Shown here piece by piece: positions 21,892-31,357 of a stretch of 33,544 bases of DNA. The notes below the pieces were generated by a model. It was not told the origin of the DNA. It searched no databases and saw nothing but the letters and a program-made list of their open reading frames with translations. Location: the NCBI GenBank assembly GCA_903834825.1, contig CAILKQ010000068.1:1-33544 (forward strand). Reading direction: 5' to 3'. Source of the stretch: an uncultured bacterium. Lineage in GTDB: Bacteria > Bacteroidota > Bacteroidia > Chitinophagales > Chitinophagaceae. The translations under genes were made by a program, and so were the position numbers. Numbering within the stretch: the first letter of the stretch is position 1; each line of letters opens with the position of its first letter.

Positions 21892-23286
21892 TTATTCTGC
21901 TTTCTTGACAAAGATGGTATCTGTAATGACCGATTTCATTGAATCACCAAAGTATAGATTAGCATTGGTTTTTATTGATTCCAATGCAAGCCTTTCATCA
22001 GTTGTTATTTTAATTCCCTGCAGATAAATCATTTTCAAATTCGGCAGATTCATCAGGTTTTTTACACCACCGGCAGTTGTCTTTGTATTTACAATGTTCA
22101 GGTATCCCAGATTATTCAATGCCGTAACCTGCTTCAATGCATTGTCTGAAATGTCAGTATGGTCCAGCCAAAGCTTCTCAAGGTTGATGAATTGATTGAG
22201 ATTTTTCAGGTCATTGTCCTTCAATGCTGAAAAGGATAATTTCAATTCTATAACATGCTCACTGATTTCAGCTGCTGCTACCAATGCATCATTAATTGTC
22301 CCCTCAATATTATAACCAATCAGTCGAATATGATTGTCATCTAATGATATAGTTGAGACAACCCATCCCATTTTTTCAAGCCTTTTCTTTATTTGCTCAT
22401 CAAGTTTATCGATGGGTTCCCTGGTTTTCACGATGGTTTTTTCTTGTATTTGGTTCTCCGCTTTAAAGGATGCCAATGCCTTGATCACCTTTGCATCTGG
22501 TGATAATGCTGCTACAGATTTATCAAAAGAGGCACCTGCATTGATCCACCATTGGAAAATGACCAGTTCTGCATCTGTGAGCTGTGTTTTTTCTTTAGGA
22601 GGCATGTGGTGCTCGTCAATATCATCCAACAAAATCCTTTTGATCAATTCTCCATCAGATGGATCTGTGGTATTGATCAAATTGCCATTCTTACCTCCCG
22701 CTTTTATCCAGCTAAGGTCATCCAAGCGTAATTTTCCTTTTTGTTTTTTACTGCCATGGCATTGAACACATTTCTGGTTCAGGGTATACTGTACCAGGTC
22801 CTTGTAAACCAGGGCTTGGTTGATGTCTTTGATGTCCAACGGCGCTGCCGTGATTGTTTTGGCATCAAGGGTTCCTTCAGTTAAAAATCCTTCTCCATGG
22901 GTAAGTGAACCTCCCTGGTGACCTGTCCAGGCCAGCATAACAAGCAATAAAAGTAGTGTATAGGTATGGGCAAGTCGCTTGGCCATTAATTTTTGCCGCA
23001 AGAAATAATATATAGTAAAGAGGGCAGTGGTTCCAATCGCCGTCCACTGGTGATTATCCACCAAATCTTGGTTGTTGATCCCTTCCAGAGAAAGGGTATA
23101 TCCTGTGACAAGGGAAAGGATAGCAGACAGTATTCCTATTCCCAGGATCAGGCGAATCGAAGCAGAGAGATATGTAAATTTATCAAACCTCGTTAGTCCA
23201 TCCATGACAATAACCAACACAAAAATACCAATGGGTAAATGCACCAAAACGGGATGAAAGCGGCCAATCAATTCTATCAGGTTCAT
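21892..23286 (-). CDS. Membrane protein with DUF2231-like TM domain, planctomycete-type cytochrome c domain and leucine-rich-repeat-like C-terminus
   Basis: MNLIELIGRFHPVLVHLPIGIFVLVIV; heme motif CVQCHGSKKQKGKLRLDD...DGELIKRILLDDIDEHHMPP; LEKLWLDHTDISDNALKQVTALNNLGYLNI repeats. Confidence 0.88.
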   Translation of the reverse strand: MNLIELIGRFHPVLVHLPIGIFVLVIVMDGLTRFDKFTYLSASIRLILGIGILSAILSLVTGYTLSLEGINNQDLVDNHQWTAIGTTALFTIYYFLRQKLMAKRLAHTYTLLLLLVMLAWTGHQGGSLTHGEGFLTEGTLDAKTITAAPLDIKDINQALVYKDLVQYTLNQKCVQCHGSKKQKGKLRLDDLSWIKAGGKNGNLINTTDPSDGELIKRILLDDIDEHHMPPKEKTQLTDAELVIFQWWINAGASFDKSVAALSPDAKVIKALASFKAENQIQEKTIVKTREPIDKLDEQIKKRLEKMGWVVSTISLDDNHIRLIGYNIEGTINDALVAAAEISEHVIELKLSFSALKDNDLKNLNQFINLEKLWLDHTDISDNALKQVTALNNLGYLNIVNTKTTAGGVKNLMNLPNLKMIYLQGIKITTDERLALESIKTNANLYFGDSMKSVITDTIFVKKAE

Positions 23287-23295
23287 GCGATGGTT

Positions 23296-24204
23296 TTAGC
23301 TGTATCTTTTTCTTATTGTTTCCATCATGTACTTGTTGATGGCCCATTGATCAGCAACAGGTTGACTAGAGAAAGGAAGGGTCTGCAGATAATTGGGCGG
23401 ACCAAATTCAGTGAGGAACGTGATGGATTGCCCTTCAATTTTTTTTCTCTCAATGACCTTATCCCACCAATCAAAATGTGCCTTGACCTCATTTTTCCAT
23501 TCTGGTGCTCGTGGATCATTTACTTGTGGACCCTCAGCATGACCAATCCTCGCATGGATATGTTCTGTTCTTGCCAAAGCCACATCAACACTGATTTGTT
23601 GATCTGCTAATAAACCCTCATGTACATTGCACCAGTGCGAAATATCAAGGGTCAGTTTAAGTTCTTTGAATCGATCGATGAAACCCCTGGAAACATGGGC
23701 AGCAAAAAGCATCCTGCCCCGGTGGGTTTCATGGTAGATGGGCACGCCTGAAGCATCAGATTGTTTAATGGTCATGGCCACCATTGCTGCATTGTCATCA
23801 AAACTAAAATAGTCTTTACCTGAATGACAATTGATATAAAGGGGTTTCAAAGAGATGGCTCGTTCAATTGCATCAGAAAACTGTTTTTTGTGCAATGTGG
23901 GGTTGGAATCATGTCCGCCTGCCAGCAGTCCAAGTTTAAGTCCCGCTTTACCGACGGCTTCACTCAATGCATTCATCTCAGCAATAGAGCCCGGAACCCA
24001 TACTTCTATGCCATCATATCCATCTTTTTTGGCTGCTGCACAGAATTCCACAAGATTACCATTGAACCCCCAGTTGGTTGCCATGATGATCAGATTTGCG
24101 GCTGGCAACTTGATTGCAGGGGTTGCAAACGCATCAAGTTCTGTAGAAAGCAAAGAACCAGCCATCAATGATCCGGTCTTCAGAAAATTTCTTCTGTTGT
24201 TCAT
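23296..24204 (-). CDS. Exported sugar phosphate isomerase/epimerase-like TIM-barrel protein
   Basis: Tat-like NRRNFLKTG signal; DGYDGIEVWVPG, LKLTLDISHWCNVHEG, EHIHARIGHAEGPQV. Confidence 0.85.
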   Translation of the reverse strand: MNNRRNFLKTGSLMAGSLLSTELDAFATPAIKLPAANLIIMATNWGFNGNLVEFCAAAKKDGYDGIEVWVPGSIAEMNALSEAVGKAGLKLGLLAGGHDSNPTLHKKQFSDAIERAISLKPLYINCHSGKDYFSFDDNAAMVAMTIKQSDASGVPIYHETHRGRMLFAAHVSRGFIDRFKELKLTLDISHWCNVHEGLLADQQISVDVALARTEHIHARIGHAEGPQVNDPRAPEWKNEVKAHFDWWDKVIERKKIEGQSITFLTEFGPPNYLQTLPFSSQPVADQWAINKYMMETIRKRYS

Positions 24205-24212
24205 GGTTTGAT

Positions 24213-25703
24213 TTAAGCGATAATGGGATCTATGGGTTTTCCAAAAACGTCTGTAAGCCGGAATGGCCTACCCTGGAATTGATAGGTCAATTGCTCATGG
24301 TCAAACCCAAGCTGTTTCAATATGGTGGCCTGTACATCATAAACGGAAACCTTTCCTTCAATGGCATTGTATCCAATTGGATCTGTTTCTCCATAGCTGA
24401 ATCCAGCTTTGATGCCGCCTCCTGCCATCCACATGCTGAAAGCTTCGGAATGATGATCACGGCCTTTGAAGCTGTTTTGTTTGCCATCCCTGTTTTCCTG
24501 CATGGGTGTTCTTCCGAACTCTCCACCCCAAACCACCAGGGTCTCTTCCAGCAAACCCCTTTGCTTCAAATCCAGCAGCAAAGCCGAAACAGCCTTGTCT
24601 GTCTGCAAACATTTGCCAATGAATCCTTTGTCTAGGGCAGTGTCTTCCCCAGTGCCATGGCTGTCCCATCCCCAATCGAAAAGTTGAACAAAGCGTACAC
24701 CTTTTTCAACCAGTTTTCTGGCAAGCAGGACATTGTTGGCAAAAGACTCTTCACCAGGTTTTGTACCATACATTTCATGAATATACGCCGGTTCATCAGC
24801 GATGCTCATGACATCTGGCACAGCAATCTGCATTTTGAAAGCCATCTCGTATTGAGAGATCCTCGCTAATATTTCAGGATCCTTGTATTCGTTGTAGGAA
24901 AGTTCATTTACATTGTTGATGGCTTCAATCGATGCTTTCCGCATATCCCTGTCAAAGCCATTGGGGTCTTCCAAAAATAATACAGGATCGCCCTCAGACC
25001 TGCATTGAACACCCTGGTAAACGGATGGCAGAAAACCACTTCCCCAGATGCTTTTTCCTGCATCCGGATTTCTTCCCCCAGAAGTCAATACCACAAAGCC
25101 AGGCAGGTTGCTATTTTCTGAACCCAGCCCGTAGGTTACCCATGAGCCCATGCTTGGTCTTCCTAACCTTGGTGTACCACAGTGCATCAGCAATTGTGCA
25201 GGGGCATGGTTGAATTGATCTGTATTGACAGCCTTCAGAATGGTTACATCATCAATGACCTGTTGAAAGTGGGGGAGGTTATCAGACAGCCACAAACCAC
25301 TTTGTCCATATTGTTTGAAACTGGCCTGAGGACCCAATAATTTGGGGACGCCACGGATGAAGGCAAATTTCTTTCCCTGAATGAATGAATCAGGACAATC
25401 GAGGCCATCCATTTTTTGAAGTTCAGGCTTGTAGTCAAACATCTCCAGTTGAGAAGGAGCCCCAGCCATGTGAAGAAAAATCACTGATTTCGCTTTTCCC
25501 TGAAAATGAGGAGCGCGGGGAGAGAGGGGATTCGACACCAATGAGCCATCTGCATTGTTGCCGGAGAACAGGTTGCAGCTGTCCAATACTGAACCCATTG
25601 CCATCATTCCCATACCAGTCCTGCATTTCCCTAGAAAATGTCTTCTTGTTTGATAGGACAGGGCGGTTCTTTGTGCCTCCAGTTGTATTTTTTCTTTTGT
25701 CAT
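24213..25703 (-). CDS. DUF1501 domain-containing protein
   Basis: RRHFLGKCRTGMGMMAMGS; KSVIFLHMAGAPSQLEMFDYKPEL; VVWGGEFGRTPMQENRDGKQNSFKGRDHHSEAFSMWMAGGGIKAGFSYGETD. Confidence 0.94.
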   Translation of the reverse strand: MTKEKIQLEAQRTALSYQTRRHFLGKCRTGMGMMAMGSVLDSCNLFSGNNADGSLVSNPLSPRAPHFQGKAKSVIFLHMAGAPSQLEMFDYKPELQKMDGLDCPDSFIQGKKFAFIRGVPKLLGPQASFKQYGQSGLWLSDNLPHFQQVIDDVTILKAVNTDQFNHAPAQLLMHCGTPRLGRPSMGSWVTYGLGSENSNLPGFVVLTSGGRNPDAGKSIWGSGFLPSVYQGVQCRSEGDPVLFLEDPNGFDRDMRKASIEAINNVNELSYNEYKDPEILARISQYEMAFKMQIAVPDVMSIADEPAYIHEMYGTKPGEESFANNVLLARKLVEKGVRFVQLFDWGWDSHGTGEDTALDKGFIGKCLQTDKAVSALLLDLKQRGLLEETLVVWGGEFGRTPMQENRDGKQNSFKGRDHHSEAFSMWMAGGGIKAGFSYGETDPIGYNAIEGKVSVYDVQATILKQLGFDHEQLTYQFQGRPFRLTDVFGKPIDPIIA

Positions 25704-25713
25704 TGTTGTTGTT

Positions 25714-28470
25714 CTAGTTCTTGGTGATTACTTCATCGAGGTTTAAGATGGCATTGGTAACGACAGCAAATGCTGCCAATTCCTTGCCTTGTTTTCTGTA
25801 AACAGAATCGGATAGCATTCCCAAAATTTTCTCTTTCTCCTTTTCAAGTTTTTGAAAACTGGAGGTGTAAAGCTGTTGAAATGCTTTGGTTTTTTGTTCG
25901 TTGATGGGGTGCCCTGTTGCCAAAGCATATCCTTTGCCAATTCTTTGCTCAAGAGAAAGTGATTTGTCTTTGAGCAGGTTTTGGGCAAGTTTAACGGAAA
26001 GATCCCAATACGTTGAATCATTGAGCAAGGTCAGTGCCTGCAATGGTGTGTTTGTTCTTATGCGCCGTGTGGCACATACTTCCCTGGCTGATCCGTCAAA
26101 ACTGATCATAGATGGATATGGGCTGGTTCGTTTCCAATAGGTGTAAATAGCCCGTCTGTATTGGTCTTCTCCATCACTTTGTTTCCATTTTCGGCCATCA
26201 TAAGGTGATCTCCAGATTCCGTCAGGCTGATAAGGCATCACACTGGGCCCATACATTTTATCGCTGAGGGCACCACAAATGGCCAGTGCCTGATCCCTTA
26301 CTTGCTCAGCACTCAGCCTTACCCTTGGGGCATGGGAATAATATTTATTGAGGGGATCCTTATCTTTTGCCTTGCCCGTGGTTTTTGAGGATTGACGGTA
26401 AGTGGCAGACATGACCATCCTCTTCAACGTTTTTTTGACACTCCAATTGTCATCGTTCATGAATAGATAAGCCAAATGATCCAGCAATTCTGGGTGTGTC
26501 GGGTTGGCTCCCTGAGAACCCAGGTCTTCCAGTGTTTCCACCAATCCCTGTCCAAACAACTGCTCCCATAGCCTGTTGACCATTGTTCTGGCAGTGAGGG
26601 GATTTGTTTTTGACGTCATCCACTGGGCCAATCCCAACCTGTTCCTGAGCTGTATGTCTTTGTCATTGACAAACAATTCCGGTAATCCGGCCTCCACTTG
26701 TTTTGTCTTGAGCAACCAGTTTCCCCTTTCAAAAACATAAGTTTTGCGCTTCATGTCCGCAGGATTGTCGAGCATGATGGGCGTGAATTCAGCATCCGGT
26801 CTGTTCAAGGTCTGGATAAAAAGATCATGGTACGTTGTGAAATCTTTTTGATCTTTTCCTGGAAAACTGGGGGTAAATGCAAACCAGTCAAAGCGCATTC
26901 CATTGTCATCTTTAGACTTCAACTTGCTGTTTTCATAATTCAGGTAAAGGTCATGAACTCCAGTTGAGCCTGGTGGAAGATCTACCTCAAGCATGGACCA
27001 CCCACCTTTGCTCTTGTCTACCTTAATTTTTAAATAGGGTTTGGCACTGGTAGAATCCAACCGGATGGTCAGTTGTCCATTGTCATTACCAGAGCCATAC
27101 CGGATGAGCAAAGTTGACTTGTTGGTCAGGCTGATGGCTTTCATCCTTGCCCAAGATGATTTGCGCAACATCAGAAATTTGGTATCACCCAGCGCCGCAT
27201 TGATCATGGAGTCAGCCAACAAGCTGTTGATGCACTGCTGCCCTGTTTTAAGCAACCTGGAATAATAAGTTTTGAGGTCATTGTTGCCATAAAGGTTGAT
27301 CCAGGTCATTACAGAATCATATTGGCTGATGCTCTTGTTGCGAAACTCGCGCAACAGCGGATAATCGTCGTAGGTGTCCTCATCCCTGGAATTGTTGAAA
27401 TAAGCCATGAACTTATAATATTCCTCATGTTTGAAGGGATCATATGGGTGGCTATGGCACTGAACGCAGGCAAAACTGGTTCCCATCAGGGTCTCCCAGG
27501 TCGTATTGACCCTGTCAATGATGGCAGCTGTCCGGAATTCTTCATTATCAGTACCCCCTTCATCATTGGTCATGGTATTGCGGTGAAATGCGGTTGCAAT
27601 GAATTGTTCATCAGTGGCATTGGGCAAGAGGTCTCCCGCGAGTTGTTCTGTCAGAAACTGGTCATAGGGTTTATCCTGGTTGAATGATTTGATCAGCCAG
27701 TCGCGATACCGCCAGATGGACCTGATATAATCCCTTTCATAGCCTTTCGTATCAGCGTATCTTGCAAGGTCCATCCACAAGGATGTCCATCGTTCGCCAT
27801 AATATTTAGAGGCAAGAAGATCATCAATCAGGTGCTCATATGCTTTGTTTGATGGGTCAGAAAGGTATTTTTGAGCAATGCTATCAGGGGCAGGTATACC
27901 TATAATATCAAGTGAGGCTCTTCTCAGAAGAGATTGTTTATCAGCCATATCTGAACGTGATAAATTATTCTCATCTAGTTTTTTATCGATAAAAAGATCA
28001 ATGTCATTCTCATCATCATTGTCAAAAAAAGAAAAGAATCCTCCGCCTGGAATCTTCTGTGGCTGGACAGATTTATACGCCCAATGGGTTTCAAATTTGG
28101 CTCCTTCATCAATCCAACGGGTAAGGAGTTTAATTTCCTGTTTTGAAAGTGGTTCTTCCTTGTAAGGCATTCTTTCTTCAAGATCCTTGTGGTACAATCG
28201 CCTGATCATTTCACTGTTTTTTGCATCGCCTGGAATGATGGCTGGTTTTCCAGAAGCAGTGGGAGAGAGCGCCTCATCCCTAAAAAGCAGGCTGAAACCT
28301 CCTTTTTGCCTCACTCCACCATGGCAGGAAATGCATTTCTGGTTGATGATAGGTTTGATTTCAGCATTATAGTCTACTGGCTCATCTGTCAGGAAGAAAT
28401 AATATCCCGTTAGGCCAAGTGTTAATCCAAGGATGGTAAGGAAAAGCGGAGATTTTATAATTGATGGCAT
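25714..28470 (-). CDS. PSD1-type protein: PSCyt1 cytochrome + DUF1549 + CBM6-like insert + DUF1553
   Basis: CISCHGGVRQKGGFSL; RWTSLWMDLARYADTKGYERDYIRSIWRYRDW; SFACVQCHSHPYDPFKHEEYYKFMAYFNNSRDED; RLWEQLFGQGLVETLEDLGSQGANPTHPELLDHLA; start ATG at 28470 preferred. Confidence 0.94.
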   Translation of the reverse strand: MPSIIKSPLFLTILGLTLGLTGYYFFLTDEPVDYNAEIKPIINQKCISCHGGVRQKGGFSLLFRDEALSPTASGKPAIIPGDAKNSEMIRRLYHKDLEERMPYKEEPLSKQEIKLLTRWIDEGAKFETHWAYKSVQPQKIPGGGFFSFFDNDDENDIDLFIDKKLDENNLSRSDMADKQSLLRRASLDIIGIPAPDSIAQKYLSDPSNKAYEHLIDDLLASKYYGERWTSLWMDLARYADTKGYERDYIRSIWRYRDWLIKSFNQDKPYDQFLTEQLAGDLLPNATDEQFIATAFHRNTMTNDEGGTDNEEFRTAAIIDRVNTTWETLMGTSFACVQCHSHPYDPFKHEEYYKFMAYFNNSRDEDTYDDYPLLREFRNKSISQYDSVMTWINLYGNNDLKTYYSRLLKTGQQCINSLLADSMINAALGDTKFLMLRKSSWARMKAISLTNKSTLLIRYGSGNDNGQLTIRLDSTSAKPYLKIKVDKSKGGWSMLEVDLPPGSTGVHDLYLNYENSKLKSKDDNGMRFDWFAFTPSFPGKDQKDFTTYHDLFIQTLNRPDAEFTPIMLDNPADMKRKTYVFERGNWLLKTKQVEAGLPELFVNDKDIQLRNRLGLAQWMTSKTNPLTARTMVNRLWEQLFGQGLVETLEDLGSQGANPTHPELLDHLAYLFMNDDNWSVKKTLKRMVMSATYRQSSKTTGKAKDKDPLNKYYSHAPRVRLSAEQVRDQALAICGALSDKMYGPSVMPYQPDGIWRSPYDGRKWKQSDGEDQYRRAIYTYWKRTSPYPSMISFDGSAREVCATRRIRTNTPLQALTLLNDSTYWDLSVKLAQNLLKDKSLSLEQRIGKGYALATGHPINEQKTKAFQQLYTSSFQKLEKEKEKILGMLSDSVYRKQGKELAAFAVVTNAILNLDEVITKN

Positions 28471-28471
28471 A

Positions 28472-29212
28472 TCAAAGCGTTGAGTGAAAATGTGTGACAA
28501 GATTATTTTTGAGGTGTTTTACTTCTGTTCCATCCAATGACACCTGAACCAGGTTCTCTTTCATATCGTTGTTGAGGTATTGCATTTGGCTTTCAAGTGT
28601 TTTTCTTGCTGAACTATGAAAGCATGTCGCGCCGGTATCCTTGGCAAGCTGAATGATATTTTCAGCCCGTACTCCTGATCCGGGCATAATCTTGATTCTT
28701 CCATTTGCCTGCGATACAAGTGTCTTGAGCAAGGTAATTCCTTCAATTGCAGTAGGTTTTAAACCGCTCGAAAGTATTCTTTTACAACCTATTGCAATTA
28801 TTTGCTCAAGTGATATGAGAGGTTCTTTGACCCTGTCAAAAGCCCTGTGAAAAGTCACTTCCATCTTACCTGCCAATGCTACCAATTCCTGGCATTTTTC
28901 GACATCAACACTTCCGTCATTTTTTAATATACCTATTACAACTCCTTCACAACCATTATCTTGTGCACATTTAATATCTTCCTTCATGGTCTCAAATTCT
29001 TCTTGAGTATACAAAAAGTCTCCACCGCGGGGACGAATGATAGGGAATACCTGTATATGGGTTGATTTCCTGGCCGCTTTCATCATGCCATACGATGGGG
29101 TAGTGCCGCCTTCATGAGGATTTGCACAAAGCTCTATCCTGTCGGCGCCGTTCTCAGCAGCCAATTGACAGGATAGAATATCAAAGGCAATGACTTCTAG
29201 TTCAAATTTCAT
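28472..29212 (-). CDS. cutC: CutC family protein
   Basis: MKFELEVIAFDILSCQLAAENGADRIELCANPHEGGTTPSYGMMKAA, VIRPRGGDFLYT, VTFHRAFDRV, RILSSG. Confidence 0.94.
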   Translation of the reverse strand: MKFELEVIAFDILSCQLAAENGADRIELCANPHEGGTTPSYGMMKAARKSTHIQVFPIIRPRGGDFLYTQEEFETMKEDIKCAQDNGCEGVVIGILKNDGSVDVEKCQELVALAGKMEVTFHRAFDRVKEPLISLEQIIAIGCKRILSSGLKPTAIEGITLLKTLVSQANGRIKIMPGSGVRAENIIQLAKDTGATCFHSSARKTLESQMQYLNNDMKENLVQVSLDGTEVKHLKNNLVTHFHSTL

Positions 29213-29213
29213 G

Positions 29214-30230
29214 TCAGTTAAAATAACTTTCACCAGGAATAACAATCTCTTCATTGGCAGATTTTACCGCATAAGAGAAACCTTTTTGAAGGGCATAAGC
29301 ACCATAATTACCTTCTTTATCCATGGCAAGAAAGCCAATCTGTATTTTTTTTGCTTTTTCAGGATCTCTTTTGGCAATTCTTTCAACCACTTTTTTACAG
29401 GCTTCTCTTGGTGAATTTCCCTGTCGCATATATTCCACAACCAAGTGAGAACCAACGCACCTGATGACTTCTTCTCCAACACCAGTAGAGGTAGCCGCTC
29501 CAATTTCACCGTCTACAAAAAGCCCGGCTCCAATGACAGGAGAATCTCCAACACGACCATGCATTTTGAAAGCCATGCCACTGGTGGTGCATCCGCCACT
29601 TAAATTACCCTGTGCATCCAGGGCCAGCAGCCCAATGGTATCATGGTTATCGATGCTTCCAGGGAACATGTCGGTATCGGGCTGTTGTTGGTATTGTTTG
29701 TTCTCGATGTTCATTACCGGCTCATAGTTTGCTTTTTTCAGCCAGTTTTTCCATGCTTCTTCGCTATCTGGGGTAAGTAAATTCTCTTTTTTAAATCCAT
29801 TGGCAAGGGCAAATTGAAGCGCACCGTCACCAACCAGGATCACATGGGGGGTCTTTTCCATGACCATCCTGGCTACTGAAATCGGATGTTTGATGTATTC
29901 CAGGCACATGACAGCGCCGCAATTTCCTTTTTCATCCATGATGCAAGCATCCAGGGTTACACGGCCATCACGATCTGGATAGCCGCCATATCCAACCGTT
30001 TTATTGCTTTCATCGGCTTCAGTGACGCGCGCACCTTTTTCAATGGCATCCAAGGCCCGTCCATTGGCTGCCAAAACTTTCCAGCCTTCAGCATTGGCTG
30101 CACGGCCAAAATTCCATGTAGAAATGATGATTGGTTTTGTAGGTTTGTTTGTCTGAATGGGCTCAGGAGTTACTGATGAAATTACAGGTAAACTAAGCAA
30201 TGAATTTTTCAGGAAATCTCTACGAATCAT
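29214..30230 (-). CDS. Glycosylasparaginase / N4-(beta-N-acetylglucosaminyl)-L-asparaginase (Ntn hydrolase), Tat-like signal
   Basis: NHDTIGLLALDAQGNLSGGCTTSGMAFKMHGRVGDSPVIGAGLFVDGEIGAATSTGVGEEVIR. Confidence 0.93.
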   Translation of the reverse strand: MIRRDFLKNSLLSLPVISSVTPEPIQTNKPTKPIIISTWNFGRAANAEGWKVLAANGRALDAIEKGARVTEADESNKTVGYGGYPDRDGRVTLDACIMDEKGNCGAVMCLEYIKHPISVARMVMEKTPHVILVGDGALQFALANGFKKENLLTPDSEEAWKNWLKKANYEPVMNIENKQYQQQPDTDMFPGSIDNHDTIGLLALDAQGNLSGGCTTSGMAFKMHGRVGDSPVIGAGLFVDGEIGAATSTGVGEEVIRCVGSHLVVEYMRQGNSPREACKKVVERIAKRDPEKAKKIQIGFLAMDKEGNYGAYALQKGFSYAVKSANEEIVIPGESYFN

Positions 30231-30346
30231 TCTTTATTTTTATACCTCAATTTACTCTAAAGTTTAAATACTTTGGCTGATTGTTCATTTAAAATATCAA
30301 CAGCTCAAGGATTAATGATTTATTTAATTCACTTATAATTTATATT

Positions 30347-31357
30347 ATGTTAAATAGTATTTTGTTCAGAATCAATCAAATGAGATTAAGCTTTAGTTGG
30401 TCAACCTCTACATTCGTACTTTCTCATTATCTATTTATTGCTGGCTTGTTCTTGTGTTCTATTGCACAAGCTCAAACCAAGTGGAAAGATGTATCCAATG
30501 ATTTTGGAAAGCTTCCGGCGAGCATCAAAGTTTTGAAGTCTGATGAGTTATTGGACGGATCGCCATCTATCATGTACGTCGCCACCATCAAAGCAAAAGA
30601 TCATGCAAAACAATTTTTTGTTGATACTGCCTCCCGCAGACGCCTGACACCCAGCCAGTATTTTACCCGCAATGGTCAACCTCTTGTTGTGGTCAATTGC
30701 TCCTTTTTTGAATTTGTTCAAAACCGAAATGTAAACTTGATTGTACAAAACAGCAAGATGGTCGGATTTGACACACCTGCTGTATCCAGAAAAGGCAGGG
30801 ATACCATGACCTATGTTCATACCCTTGGCAGTGCATTTGGCATTTTCAAAAACGGAAAGATGGACATTGCGTTCAATTATAATGATTCTGGTATGGCTGT
30901 ACCCTTTGTGATGCAGTCAGTGTATACGCCCATGATTGATTCTGTAAGAAGATTAAAAATCAATCATCCTAGTTTGGCAGGGCTGAAACCGTGGAAAGTG
31001 AAACATGCTTTTGGTGGTGGCCCTGTCTTGGTACAAGATGGTCAGGTAAAAATATCGAACAATGAAGAAAAGAAGTTTGCTGGAAAAGCGATTGCAGACA
31101 AGCATCCTCGGACGGCTATTGGCTATACCAGGGACGGTACCATGATCATTTTGGCCATACAAGGAAGGATGAAGGGTTTGGCAGAGGGTGCTACCCTGCC
31201 ACAAATGGCAAAAATCATGGTAGATCTTGGCTGTGTTGAAGCCATGAACCTGGATGGTGGGGGCAGTTCCTGTATGCTAATCAATGGAAAAGAAACCATC
31301 AAGCCTTCTGATCCCAATGGACAAAGACCTGTACCGGCAGTATTGGTGATCAAATAA
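30347..31357 (+). CDS. Phosphodiester glycosidase (NAGPA-like) family exported protein
   Basis: HPRTAIGYTRDGTMIILAIQGR, GATLPQMAKIMVDLGCVEAMNLDGGGSSCMLINGK. Confidence 0.9.
   Translation: MLNSILFRINQMRLSFSWSTSTFVLSHYLFIAGLFLCSIAQAQTKWKDVSNDFGKLPASIKVLKSDELLDGSPSIMYVATIKAKDHAKQFFVDTASRRRLTPSQYFTRNGQPLVVVNCSFFEFVQNRNVNLIVQNSKMVGFDTPAVSRKGRDTMTYVHTLGSAFGIFKNGKMDIAFNYNDSGMAVPFVMQSVYTPMIDSVRRLKINHPSLAGLKPWKVKHAFGGGPVLVQDGQVKISNNEEKKFAGKAIADKHPRTAIGYTRDGTMIILAIQGRMKGLAEGATLPQMAKIMVDLGCVEAMNLDGGGSSCMLINGKETIKPSDPNGQRPVPAVLVIK

Follow-up and report, generated by a model that had tools for sequence, protein, structure and literature searches.

A CBM6-fold domain within a class of diheme PSCyt1-PSCyt2-PSD1 cytochromes of Bacteroidota

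The cytochrome gene and its neighbours

The window (the whole 33,544 nt stretch of DNA that was analysed) carries on its reverse strand a cluster of four genes, one of which encodes a diheme c-type cytochrome with an additional domain between its PSCyt2 and PSD1 parts. The features of the cluster, with neighbour counts taken over 80 wider loci (the 20 closest loci were left out, and the counts are minima because some contigs end early), are as follows:

21892..23286, reverse strand: DUF2231 membrane protein with a PSCyt1 heme domain and an LRR-like tail (Pfam; at least 60 of 80 loci)
23296..24204, reverse strand: AP_endonuc_2 TIM-barrel protein, sugar isomerase/epimerase-like (Pfam; at least 53 of 80 loci)
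24213..25703, reverse strand: DUF1501 partner (Pfam; at least 78 of 80 loci)
25714..28500, reverse strand: PSCyt1-PSCyt2-[CBM6-like]-PSD1 diheme c-type cytochrome, 928 aa from TTG (open reading frame, Pfam)
28165..28335, reverse strand: PSCyt1 domain of the cytochrome, residues 56-112, heme motif CISCH (Pfam)
27385..28002, reverse strand: PSCyt2/DUF1549 domain, residues 167-372, heme motif CVQCH at residue 345 (Pfam, coordinates)
26869..27231, reverse strand: CBM6-like beta-sandwich domain, residues ~424-544 (CBM_6 HMM, AlphaFold, Foldseek, homologues)
25870..26643, reverse strand: PSD1/DUF1553 domain, residues 620-877 (Pfam)

The presence of PF07635, PF07583 and PF07587 in this order makes the cytochrome a member of the PSCyt1/PSCyt2/PSD1 proteins, and its two CXXCH motifs (residues 56 and 345) have counterparts in all of the class members examined, with two such motifs in 100/100 sequences. 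The first description of PSCyt2/PSD1 proteins was from Planctomycetes; the proteins are also present in Verrucomicrobia, and our analysis adds parts of the Bacteroidota. The literature on DUF1549, DUF1553 and DUF1501 was sparse, with no function for PSCyt2/PSD1 proteins in the papers searched, and nothing usable on links to 3-keto-sugar pathways in titles and abstracts. The open frame from TTG (25714-28500) overlaps the end of the CutC gene at window positions 28470-28500; close relatives, when compared with the window frame, start at the codon that matches the ATG at 28470, which suggests that this ATG is the start of the cytochrome.

Searches of solved structures and Foldseek with the whole protein detected no structural analogue for the PSCyt2/PSD1 part, since FoxE was a weak sequence match over the cytochrome part (E = 0.0016), a single fold match to 9qwu was improbable and was discarded, and the significant matches otherwise fell on the CBM6-like domain. 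The full-length model had low confidence in the heme-bearing part. A strongly hydrophobic N-terminal segment was found in 97/100 sequences and a lipobox was absent from 88/100, from which we infer that the cytochrome probably sits in the inner membrane and faces the periplasm.

Within this genome, a DUF1501 gene adjoins each of the five PSD1 genes. One paralogue (L058:4254-6806, on contig 33 of the window's genome, G000) fuses DUF2231, PSCyt1, PSCyt2 and PSD1 in one chain, as opposed to the two separate genes of the window cluster, and this fusion speaks for a link, physical or functional, between the two cytochromes of the cluster. Neither the TIM-barrel protein nor the DUF1501 protein had a significant relative among solved structures, the latter giving a weak arylsulfatase match (E = 0.35). 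Both proteins (23296-24204 and 24213-25703) begin with Tat-like RR segments, RRNFLK and RRHFLG respectively. Upstream of the cluster, the CutC and asparaginase genes of the window recur in only two of the wider loci, and the 95 upstream genes scanned across the class were mixed, without a common enzyme and with the commonest families reaching 5/95; carbohydrate genes among them included four fucosidases, four putative glucoamylases and two SusD-like genes. At 29214-31357 of the window, the gene for the Asparaginase_2-family protein adjoins a divergent gene for a NAGPA-family phosphodiester glycosidase.

Limits, fold and family of the inserted domain

The earlier note on this sequence had proposed a CBM6-like insert between DUF1549 and DUF1553, and this was borne out, as the peptide quoted there matches residues 455-544 exactly (26869-27138, reverse strand) and is flanked by the Pfam domains PSCyt2/DUF1549 (167-372) and PSD1/DUF1553 (620-877). 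As an isolated segment it scored 34.0 bits against Pfam CBM_6 (E = 4.1e-8, cut-off 28.9); the score was 32.8 bits in a six-frame search of the genome, again above the cut-off, and 28.5 bits within the whole protein, 0.4 bits under it. The limits given previously (26860-27140) do enclose the peptide, but not the start of the domain, which lies ~30 residues before the peptide (residue ~424, position 27231), as judged from a conserved KTxQPxINSLxADxxxN...RN block and from strands beginning at residue 429.

An AlphaFold model built on a 20-sequence alignment showed a beta-rich domain of eight strands (mean pLDDT 86), with strands 1 and 2 (residues 429-438 and 442-457) mostly preceding the start of the quoted peptide, and in Foldseek almost all of its best matches were CBM6 domains of solved structure (TM ~0.7, lowest E 1.6e-8). 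A profile of 20 orthologous segments likewise retrieved CBM6-bearing chains among solved structures, and a profile of 95 sequences matched solved CBM6 domains more strongly (BH0236 CBM6, E = 4.1e-9). The profile search and structure prediction suggested in the earlier note thus both led to CBM6, and of the two families it had named for the beta-sandwich, CBM35 was rejected as the better one, since sequence and fold matches rank CBM6 first. Taken together, the HMM, the solved-structure profile, the predicted fold and the Foldseek matches confirm the observation and show that the inserted segment truly has the CBM6 fold and is longer than first described (~424-544).

The domain shares an HMM match with the CBM6 (PF03422) domains of BH0236 (1w9s), C. 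cellulolyticum (2v4v), CtCBM6 (1gmm/1uxx) and P. saltans GH43 (8hcj), as well as the eight-stranded beta-rich fold and the motif order IHLDS...GvHDLYf...FDWF; it differs from them in lying inside a cytochrome rather than being appended to a glycoside hydrolase. Of the folded parts, the body of the domain varies most among the 20 closest relatives: its mean column conservation is 0.52, as against 0.82 (PSCyt2) and 0.75 (PSD1). The N-terminal block of the domain (residues 418-454), by contrast, is well conserved at 0.72. A weaker second CBM_6 match in the same genome (contig 180:15951-16253, 26.4 bits, under the cut-off) lies in a 1142-aa open frame.

Distribution of the class and residues of the sugar site

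CBM_6 was matched by 86 of 95 non-redundant homologous domain sequences (E ≤ 0.01), and an even sample of the phylum contained a match to the class at E ≤ 1e-12 in 5 of 118 genomes, including the window's own and one partial match; the class is therefore patchy, yet stable where present. In named genomes, the 80 best loci match the class over the greater part of its length; going by the record titles, most belong to Bacteroidota (Chitinophagaceae, Pedobacter, Niabella, Cyclobacteriaceae, Saprospiraceae and others). Two loci, titled Williamsia sp. (L082) and Beijerinckiaceae (L104), share their cluster with the Bacteroidota loci, and their record titles possibly reflect mislabelling or contamination. 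In four loci (L068, L069, L079 and L107), tandem copies of the class precede one DUF1501 gene.

The insertion site is not always occupied in the same way. Two paralogues of ~780 aa from the same genus group (L055 and L061) have no domain there, and three others (L056, L057 and L059) have a Laminin_G_3 domain, which is likewise a lectin-like beta-sandwich, though of another fold family. In the topology of a PSCyt2 plus PSD1 core tree, support values aside, the 20 CBM6-like sequences cluster and the Laminin_G_3 types form two other branches. The contents of the paralogues and the core tree thus argue that this site has received different beta-sandwich domains.

In CtCBM6, the ligand residues are Tyr34, Trp92 and Asn120 (PMC10284105), and in CBM6 and CBM35 the Asn at the base of the site is invariant and the Trp usual (PMC9843283). 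Alignments with solved CBM6 domains (two profiles) place these three positions at residues 450, 501 and 536 of the window protein, the placement of the Trp being ambiguous in the 1w9s alignment. Residue 501 is aromatic in 86/95 sequences, but an aromatic (W, Y, F or H) at 450 occurs in 12/95 and Asn at 536 in 5/95, and the three residues, which are the typical cleft set and not a formal definition of CBM6, never occur together (0/95). Position 450 is mostly S, V or T in the 95 sequences, and 536 is free to vary. The window protein itself has W450, W501 and R536, thus keeping two aromatics with Arg in place of Asn; W450 is found in its own clade, and in an adjoining loop N533, which could replace the site Asn, is kept in 16 of 20 close relatives.

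Other positions are well conserved, with D430, N434, R452, H516, D538 and W539 retained in 81 to 92 of the 95 sequences. The structural calcium site of BT0996-C consists of two N-terminal Glu and a C-terminal Asp (PMC9843283); of the positions that may correspond to it here, D430 (91/95) and D538 (81/95) are kept, and residue 428 is rarely acidic. The residue comparison hence indicates that the fold is conserved and the usual CBM6 site degraded across the class, which argues against ordinary polysaccharide targeting.

Two reported domains depart from the typical set. In BT0996-C both the Trp and the Asn signature are missing, yet it binds polygalacturonic acid (PMC9843283), so that an unusual site can be functional. 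The HhXyn5A CBM6 has no equivalents of Tyr34, Trp92 and Asn120, and the catalytic domain alone shows no detectable activity (PMC10284105), a precedent by which an unusual CBM6 may be required for activity; its host is a xylanase and not a cytochrome, however, and most members of the class described here keep an aromatic at the Trp92 position.

Possible roles of the CBM6-like domain

The presence of CBM_6 in PSCyt genes is itself already known. Genes of this type in freshwater Verrucomicrobia encode CBMs including pfam03422 (CBM_6) and pfam13385, and He et al. 2017 (PMC5615132) proposed a role of PSCyt in carbohydrate metabolism and, as the proteins were predicted to be periplasmic or cytoplasmic, an action on mono- or oligomers. 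What is new here is the single Bacteroidota class in which the CBM6-like domain is fixed, together with its conserved gene cluster and the comparison of site residues.

We propose that one PSCyt1-PSCyt2-PSD1 class in Bacteroidota has the CBM6-fold domain as a fixed component, passed down together with the rest of the cytochrome. The N-terminal hydrophobic helix would anchor the cytochrome facing the periplasm, where its partners would be the DUF1501 protein and the membrane cytochrome DUF2231/PSCyt1; together they would probably pass on the electrons of a small substrate, which in view of the TIM-barrel neighbour may be a sugar derivative. The CBM6-like domain would pack against the PSCyt2/PSD1 core or a partner, and would probably shape or lid the substrate entrance or dock a partner protein. 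That the domain is such a built-in accessory, in a diheme cytochrome whose redox chemistry acts on a small carbohydrate-like substrate, has in our judgement an even chance of being correct. The stronger version, that in this class CBM6 has become a structural or docking element that does not bind sugar, within a membrane redox complex that also contains DUF1501 and DUF2231/PSCyt1 proteins, is put forward tentatively, as falling a little short of that.

Alternatively, the domain may still function in glycan binding through a site that has changed; it would then hold periplasmic oligosaccharides via W450/W501 together with polar residues, R536 and N533 among them, and present the substrate to a heme or to the PSD1 active site. 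This is a real possibility, albeit on balance a doubtful one: the residues of the window protein allow for such a site, the Trp92 position is aromatic in most sequences, W450 recurs within the window's clade, BT0996-C provides a precedent, and the fucosidases, glucoamylases and SusD-like genes upstream would fit; a specific site should nevertheless be kept in close relatives, in which respect the S, V or T at 450 and the variability of 536 count against it, and the upstream carbohydrate genes are few and mixed. Anchoring of the cytochrome on a polysaccharide of the cell wall or outside the cell, the targeting function assigned to the domain in the earlier note, appears unlikely. It would agree with CBM6 membership by both sequence and fold, with the Laminin_G_3 inserts as CBM-type domains at the same site in paralogues, and with He et al., who took the CBMs of PSCyt genes to hint at carbohydrate metabolism; it is disfavoured by the absence of the site Asn in 90/95 sequences and of a Tyr34-type aromatic in 83/95, by the N-terminal hydrophobic anchor usually lacking a lipobox, and by the periplasmic or cytoplasmic location predicted by He et al. 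The related expectation that the domain would hint at the substrate is not supported either, as no single polysaccharide-degrading neighbour recurs. Finally, an unrelated beta-sandwich with a chance resemblance to a CBM is very improbable: the whole-protein score just under the CBM_6 cut-off would allow for it, and it was rejected because Foldseek, the solved-structure profile with CBM6 chains first (E = 4e-9) and the 86 matching homologues all contradict it. An integral structural or substrate-positioning role is thus more likely than polysaccharide targeting.

For these cytochromes, the CBM6 label taken alone is no indication of a polysaccharide, and recognising this guards against a wrong choice of substrate; the conserved four-gene cluster and the fused paralogue offer a better starting point for experiments. 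If the domain does have a non-sugar-binding structural or docking role, the CBM label on these cytochromes would be misleading.
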